A stretch of DNA of 64,000 nt from Kordiimonadaceae bacterium (GTDB lineage: Bacteria; Pseudomonadota; Alphaproteobacteria; Sphingomonadales; Kordiimonadaceae): NCBI GenBank assembly GCA_017640725.1, contig JAEPQB010000002.1, forward strand, positions 434,001-498,000, in the 5' to 3' direction. Below, one piece after another: positions 25,518 to 42,044 of this stretch (the first letter of the stretch is position 1; each line of letters starts with the position of its first letter). A program made the translations under genes and the position numbers. The notes beneath the pieces are model-generated. The model was given only the letters and a program-made list of their open reading frames with translations, did not search any database and was not told the origin of the DNA.

Positions 25518-25826
25518 ATGATCCGGGTTATCTACCGCTGGAACGTATCGCCTGAGCGGAAGCAAGAATTCGCAGACGCATGGCAAAAGGCGACACGGGC
25601 AATTCACGGCGAAACACCCGGAGCGCTTGGCAGCTTCTGCCTGGAAAACATTGAAGACGTGGATGAAGTGCTCACTGTCGCGCTCTGGCACTCGGAGCAG
25701 CAGTGGCGGGACTTCATAGGCAGTGCAAAGCAAGGCCCCATGGCTGCGCTTCATGACATCGGCACGCTGCTTTCAACCACGCCCTATAACCAATTGGGCG
25801 ACGAAACGGTTGCGCTTGAGCTCTGA
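25518..25826 (+). CDS. Antibiotic biosynthesis monooxygenase (ABM)-like protein
   Basis: A 102-residue dimeric ferredoxin-like fold protein. It starts at ATG 25518 with AGGCGGAG upstream. Segments VIYRWNVSPERKQEFADAW, GSFCLE and TVALWHSEQQWRDF are characteristic of the ABM superfamily, which includes haem-degrading IsdG-like and quinone monooxygenases. No haem-ligand histidine is obvious in the usual place. It follows lysR by 13 bases, suggesting coregulation. Confidence 0.78.
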   Translation: MIRVIYRWNVSPERKQEFADAWQKATRAIHGETPGALGSFCLENIEDVDEVLTVALWHSEQQWRDFIGSAKQGPMAALHDIGTLLSTTPYNQLGDETVALEL

Positions 25827-27500: not shown

Positions 27501-27723
27501 GCCGCCTCGCCTTTTGCATACCACCCTTGCCTCTAACCCAGTGTGAGTTCACACGTTTGTTATGAGCATCACCTGTAGCCATGCGCCTGGCGCATGGCTG
27601 GTGCGACAATATGGTGGGTTCTCCTCATCATCTGATCAATCTATATACAGGTCATCGCGAACGGGCAAACACGACGGTGATCGCCCAGCCCGCGAAAAAG
27701 TTTTGACGGTATTCCGTCATAAT

Positions 27724-27847
27724 GGCCGGCCCTGGTAACTCTCCCCCCTCCCCCACTTCACCAGGGTCGGCCAATTAATTTCCCGGGATGTATTCCGGTT
27801 TTATAGTCCCCTATAGATTTGGCCCCACTTGTTGGGGCCTTTTTTTT
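27724..27847 (+). ncRNA. Candidate small RNA with C-rich loop and intrinsic terminator
   Basis: The first element is a 13-bp stem (ggccggccctggt at 27724-27736 with accagggtcggcc at 27760-27772, one G-U pair) closing a 23-base loop rich in CUCCCCCCUCCCCC. About 50 unpaired bases follow, then the terminator at 27821-27847. C/U-rich loops complementary to Shine-Dalgarno sequences are known in alphaproteobacterial sRNAs such as the cuckoo type, which inhibit translation. The 5' end is not defined and no good promoter was recognised, so boundaries are approximate. Confidence 0.42.
27821..27847 (+). terminator. Intrinsic terminator without an upstream protein gene
   Basis: ggcccca (27821-27827), a 5-base loop, tggggcc (27833-27839) and a run of eight T residues. 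The orientation is plus strand, while the nearest upstream gene on the left is on the minus strand. Confidence 0.85.
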
Positions 27848-27950
27848 GGCCTCAATCATAGACCCCTGTCTTAGGTTTAGGACCGCTTGACTTGGCAAAC
27901 CAATCGCGCGACGGTGCGCGCCTCTTTAAATTTTCGATTGAGGCGTTCTG

Positions 27951-41105: not shown

Positions 41106-42044
41106 ATGGGCATGAAGATTTTATCAGGGAACGCCAATCCGGAACTCGCTGAGGCGATCGGGGCATACCTCAACATTCCTCTGGCAAAAGCAGCAGTGAA
41201 GCGCTTTTCTGACCAGGAAGTTTTTGTGGAAATCCATGAAAACGTGCGCGGTGAGGATGTGTTCCTCGTTCAGCCGACAAACTTTCCTGCCAATGACCAT
41301 ATGATGGAACTCTTGGTGTGCATCGACGCGCTCCGCCGTGCCTCTGCGCGCCGCATTACAGCGGTTATCCCCTACTTTGGATATGCGCGCCAAGATCGGA
41401 AACCTGGCCCTCGCACACCGATCTCAGCCAAGCTTGTTGCTAATCTGATCACAACTGCGGGCGCTGACAGGGTGTTAACGATGGATCTGCACGCGGGTCA
41501 GATCCAGGGCTTTTTCGACATCCCAACGGACAATTTGTACGCCATGCCCGTGCTGGTTCGGGACCTGAAAGAAAAGTATGCCGGTCGCCAGCTGACAATC
41601 GTTTCGCCTGACGTTGGCGGTGTGGTTCGTGCGCGCGCATACGCGAAACGCATGGATGCCCCAATTGCTATCATTGATAAACGCCGCGAACGTGCGGGCG
41701 TCTCTGAAGTAATGCATCTGGTTGGTGAGGTTGCGGGAACAGACTGTGTGCTTGTTGATGACATCGTCGATAGTGCAGGTACGCTTTGCAACGCAGCACA
41801 AGCGCTGATGGATGCAGGCGCCAAGTCTGTATCGGCTTATGTAGCGCACGGCGTTTTGTCGGGCCCGGCATATGATCGCATCAACAATAGCGTGATGGAC
41901 GAAGTGGTGATCACGGACAGCATCCGTCCAACACAGGATGCCAAAGACAGCCCGAAAATCCGGCCTGTCACTGTGGCACCTTTGCTTGCGGAAGCCATGA
42001 ACCGGATCGCTCACGAAACAAGCGTATCAAGCTTGTTCGACTAA
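41106..42044 (+). CDS. prs: Ribose-phosphate pyrophosphokinase
   Basis: A 312-residue enzyme that makes PRPP from ribose 5-phosphate and ATP for nucleotide, His and Trp synthesis. ATG 41106 has GGAGG directly upstream; a GTG at 41094 would overlap this site. Conserved motifs: [54 protein letters not shown] and the PRPP loop [18 protein letters not shown]. Length and motifs indicate a fully functional class I enzyme. Confidence 0.97.

Follow-up and report, generated by a model that had tools for sequence, protein, structure and literature searches.

A predicted small RNA gene with a C/U-rich loop, conserved in Kordiimonas and related genera

C-rich loops are found in several small RNAs (sRNAs) of the Alphaproteobacteria. 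In GsrN, the general-stress sRNA of the Caulobacteraceae, the C-rich loop is exposed on a 5' hairpin and is a known seed that pairs with G-rich sites in mRNAs (PMC5869019); transcription of its gene depends on sigma-EcfG, and the gene is usually found close to ecfG, nepR or phyR. PmaR of Agrobacterium, which is lineage-restricted, presents a C-rich single-stranded loop on a long stem; this loop is also a known sRNA seed, and the RNA has mainly activating effects on its targets, for the most part away from ribosome sites (PMC6234868). The cuckoo/CcsR RNAs with CcaF1 (CIN1 loci) likewise have C-rich loops, and the CcsR RNAs share a transcript with a DUF1127 gene (PMC10253847). The alphaR8/MmgR/SisA-D type (Rfam RF00519, suhB) is built at its 3' side in the order weak hairpin, CCUCCC linker and terminator, and has a ten-nucleotide single-stranded core, UUUCCUCCCU; in Caulobacter, the SisA-D RNAs are sponged by CrfA (PMC12559287).

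The locus described here lies in a window of 64,000 nucleotides (the whole stretch of DNA that was analysed) from the genome of a Kordiimonadaceae bacterium. The original prediction had proposed a sRNA gene from an orphan plus-strand terminator, a 13-bp stem with one wobble pair and a 23-base loop made almost entirely of C and U, all within the longest intergenic spacer, taken to be 450 bases. The spacer is indeed the longest in the window, although simple ORF calls give it a length of 426 bp. The terminator was located at 27821–27839, followed by T8, and the preceding plus-strand gene ends at 25826, leaving a gap of 2.0 kb. Folding places the 23-nt loop, AACUCUCCCCCCUCCCCCACUUC, on a hairpin that does contain a single G–U pair, but has 14 pairs rather than 13 (27723–27736 with 27760–27773); 47 bases, where fifty had been given, separate this stem from the terminator. 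The features are collected in Table 1.

Table 1. Predicted features of the sRNA locus, in window coordinates
Feature	Position	Strand	Remarks
Palindrome AGCCATGCG-cctgg-CGCATGGCT, predicted activator site	27577..27599	.	Centre 53.5 bp 5' of the -10 box
-35-like element GTTCTC, non-consensus	27618..27623	+	Conserved; 18 bp ahead of the -10 box
Predicted -10 box TATATA	27642..27647	+	Position conserved
Predicted sRNA transcript, ~195 nt	27654..27847	+	Block kept from promoter to terminator; fold z -5.2
Hairpin 1, TGACGG-tatt-CCGTCA	27704..27719	+	Compensatory change; loop inserts in relatives
Hairpin 2, 14 bp including one G–U, carries the C/U-rich loop	27723..27773	+	Covariation
C/U-rich loop, predicted pairing seed	27737..27759	+	Composition kept across copies
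Hairpin 3, weak	27783..27798	+	Folding; sequence variable
Linker with UCCCCUA	27803..27818	+	ACCUCCCUA in other genera; possible second seed
Intrinsic terminator GGCCCCA-cttgt-TGGGGCC + T8	27821..27847	+	Compensatory pairs

The fold exceeds what would be expected by chance, since the segment 27720–27849 folds at −53.1 kcal/mol (z = −4.3, with none of 200 shuffled sequences being equally stable) and the longer segment 27655–27849 reaches z = −5.2 against shuffled sequence. Pairing is also retained among relatives. Within the alignment used for the first model, which comprised 12 distinct sequences and was not fitted to a model, a standard pair is present in every cell of the 18 pairs. The second alignment, of 25 distinct sequences from eight genera, was model-fitted, such that its counts lean towards the model: 98.9% of the cells of the 18 modelled pairs are paired, both sides have changed in 12 of these pairs (5.0 in shuffles), and the covariation score is 0.375, against 0.190 in shuffles. 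Sliding the pairings out of register causes a collapse to at most 54% paired cells. For helix 2 in the same 25 sequences, both sides have changed in 10 of the 12 modelled pairs, with 99.7% of cells paired, and hairpin 1 shows a compensatory A–U to G–C change with a 3-nt loop, its loop spacing ranging from 3 to >15 nt and relatives having long loop insertions. Compensatory change, which had been put forward as a check on the stem, is therefore plentiful, and stem pairing is retained in the orthologous intergenic regions. As the helices contain 24 G–U pairs and no A–C pairs, the plus strand is shown to be the RNA strand.

The covariance model (R2) gave a strong match in 26 of the 29 genomes of the window's family, with one copy in each, and BLASTN detected the element in 13 of the 18 genomes of the same genus. 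The absent copy of G003 has probably been lost to assembly, since its palindrome and −10 box are found <200 bases from the end of a contig, oriented such that the RNA would extend beyond it. When six relatives were aligned, the block from palindrome to terminator proved far better conserved than the beginning of the upstream gene, hairpins 1 and 2 being 80–92% identical as against 27–39%. Outside the family, matches were at chance level: the order-wide model search returned approximately 20 at E values up to 0.1, fewer than the approximately 37 expected by chance, and the class-wide search a single weak match (G416; E = 0.003); the plasmid collection yielded no match, nor did Rfam at the gathering threshold, and weak sub-threshold Rfam matches were dismissed as terminator-like background. 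By these comparisons, the plus strand from approximately 27655 to 27847 is a conserved, single-copy structured RNA gene, whose family is new, lineage-restricted and absent from the Rfam catalogue. The result is a well-supported sRNA family and a covariance model that can be used directly; for this lineage, our search of the literature turned up no relevant work on sRNAs of Kordiimonas. A few loci outside the family with weak model matches look similar by eye; two of these, L062 and L098, have a GACG-type hairpin, accompanied in L098 by a C-rich loop, and may be distant relatives or chance matches.

The 3' order of elements recalls alphaR8/MmgR/SisA-D, but the Kordiimonas RNA has in addition a 5' module, which contains the C-rich hairpin. 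However, its RF00519 scores are 21–28.5 bits against a threshold of 41 (23.1 for the window and 28.5 for the best relative), and scores of this size are background across the genomes and controls. Moreover, in place of the exact core the window has UAGUCCCCUA, some relatives have ACCUCCCUA and one has CUUCCUCCCU. In addition, every family genome contains another RF00519 match at a different site, and in 26 of the 29, the window's own among them, this match exceeds the curated cut-off; on these grounds, the RNA was rejected as a member of RF00519. A separate sRNA of the alphaR8/MmgR type, at G000:C7:701172-701244 (L109), does contain the exact UUUCCUCCCU core, and its 5' hairpin is GACGAG...CTCGTC. 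As in GsrN, a C-rich loop is exposed on a 5' hairpin, but the promoter here combines a palindrome with TATATA; the spacer contains no sigma-EcfG site (GGAAC-N-CGTT), the sole match in the window being at 41241–41265 on the minus strand. The long stem, C-rich single-stranded loop and restriction to one lineage are shared with PmaR, which differs in how and where it mostly acts and to which no sequence relation is shown. A relationship to the cuckoo family, which the original prediction had suggested checking, did not hold up: DUF1127 is absent from the neighbourhood, the RNA is single and has just one hairpin with a C-rich loop, and Rfam gave no match at threshold. On the features tested, the RNA stands outside alphaR8/MmgR, GsrN and cuckoo, and most likely works like such C-rich sRNAs.

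The gene 3' of the RNA varies: six loci have DUF885 there, eight have a proC-like gene in convergent orientation, and six have a gene for a periplasmic-type protein (the latter two names were assigned by eye). The upstream side is mostly occupied by a divergent cyclophilin/HEAT gene, and around the window copy lie genes for a cyclophilin/HEAT protein, LysR, ABM and DUF885. A leader would retain its gene; because the gene that follows changes from lineage to lineage and in many cases points towards the RNA, the element is by its genomic context an independent sRNA gene and not the leader of a downstream gene, an independence that, with the conserved fold, bears out the small RNA gene originally predicted. 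It is correspondingly improbable that the RNA acts in cis, as a leader or attenuator of the next gene. DUF885 does lie on the same strand in the window, with the terminator approximately 100 nt ahead of its ATG, and it adjoins the RNA in six Kordiimonas, but other copies adjoin an unrelated or convergent gene, the eight proC-like loci among them. Additionally, a conserved block, CTTGAC...GCGCGACGGTGCGCG, between the terminator and DUF885 (27888–27925 in the window) suggests that DUF885 has its own, separate promoter. We consider it very improbable that the hairpin is a DNA-level protein site from which no RNA is made: although hairpin 1, taken by itself, is a clean palindrome, its spacing varies as described above, the G–U pairs of helix 2 fall on one strand only, and a terminator follows. 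No greater probability attaches to a dual-function RNA that encodes a small proline-rich peptide, MAGPGNSPPSPTSPGSAN, from an ATG at 27722. The 18-codon frame is present in the window and in a second genome of nearly the same sequence, but most relatives have lost the ATG, reading AAAGG instead, and indels shift the frame, on which grounds this reading was rejected; the conservation is, moreover, explained by covariation.

The loop contains 77–93% C+U and from 0 to 3 G in all 26 copies, with the motifs CUCCCC and ACUUC recurrent among them; as this composition, with its near-absence of G, persists through the compensatory changes of the stem, the loop is, on this comparative evidence, under its own constraint. 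A second C-rich motif, ACCUCCCUA, lies 5' of the terminator in several genera and is degenerate in the window, where folding indicates that the linker can form a small hairpin. The C/U-rich loop could conceivably serve as a decoy that, instead of pairing with mRNAs, titrates an RNA-binding protein or some G-rich sRNA, in the manner of CrfA but with the roles of the C- and G-rich partners reversed. The loop is long, repetitive and of low information, which suits titration, and sRNA networks do exist, an alphaR8 match being present in every family genome; nevertheless, the ACUUC conserved in most loops suggests more specific pairing, and we regard a decoy as unlikely, if less so than the readings discussed above.

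By analogy with the described C-rich sRNAs, whose loops set a precedent for binding to G-rich ribosome sites or leaders (PMC5869019), pairing of the loop with G-rich ribosome sites would be the likeliest mechanism. The pairing with Shine–Dalgarno sequences envisaged in the original prediction is thus plausible, but its specificity was not borne out. The loop duplex energy is −9.2 at start regions of the window versus −7.9 inside genes, whereas a reversed-loop control gives −9.9 and −7.7, respectively; since the reversed loop pairs as well, the preference for start regions is generic. The pattern GTGGGGGAG occurs before ATG about four times as often as the reversed-pattern control, and the corresponding target search revealed no orthologous gene that recurs among the 30 loci compared. 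Overall, we think it probable that the element is an independently transcribed gene for a trans-acting sRNA of Kordiimonas and its relatives. We infer that transcription starts, probably near 27654, at a promoter that has a TATATA box and a poor −35 region and is switched on by a dimeric activator bound to the palindrome, and that it stops at the terminator. Hairpin 1 may act as a cap or stabilizer of the 5' side, whereas hairpin 2 would display the long unstructured C/U loop for pairing, probably on Hfq (the genome encodes an hfq gene), with G-rich ribosome-site stretches of several mRNAs, mostly lowering their translation. A unit with an intrinsic terminator and a conserved, exposed seed would place the RNA in the general class of trans-acting Hfq-dependent sRNAs, and make it a further case of the recurring use of C-rich loops in Alphaproteobacteria.

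The palindrome, AGCnATGC-N7-GCATnGCT, and the TATATA-like box were both found by script in 25 of the 26 sRNA copies, and in every one of these 25 the palindrome is centred 52.5 or 53.5 bp before the box; at −35, most copies have GTTTTC or GTTCTC rather than TTGAC. A palindrome at fixed spacing together with a poor −35 region is a pattern of activator-dependent promoters, and we therefore infer that the sRNA promoter is one of these. At seven Kordiimonas loci, a small-protein gene is preceded by this palindrome with a spacing of exactly 53.5 bp, including one locus in the window's genome (L019; the others are L071, L072, L089, L093, L095 and L096). An order-wide pattern search also found it ahead of similar small proteins in families f6 (L174), f7 (L154) and f8 (L150–L152), and at each small-protein locus it lies approximately 53–54 bp before a −10-like box. 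The proteins are unannotated, are approximately 65–120 aa in length and contain a YSFMDLLxxxGxVP-like motif once or twice each; among those tested, none matched Pfam above the cut-off. Based on the identical palindrome and spacing, one putative activator probably drives both the sRNA and the small-protein gene. More tentatively, though still as a serious possibility, the sRNA may be the non-coding arm of an undescribed regulon, in which one dimeric activator, bound at this palindrome approximately 53.5 bp before the −10 box, would drive the RNA and an unannotated [YF]-x-F-[MF]-x-L-[LM] ... G-x-[VI]-P small-protein family in several families of the order. The common promoter, itself undescribed, ties the two together unusually clearly, and both are testable together. 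At one further locus (L153, the same site as L015; f4), the palindrome lies 54.5 bp from a TATAAG box before a 109-aa protein, which gave no Pfam or NCBIfam match and is phasin-like by eye. The palindrome is also found at L092, where it lies between two genes, one similar-looking and the other nitroreductase-like, and ahead of a small protein with a TonB C-terminal domain (L155).
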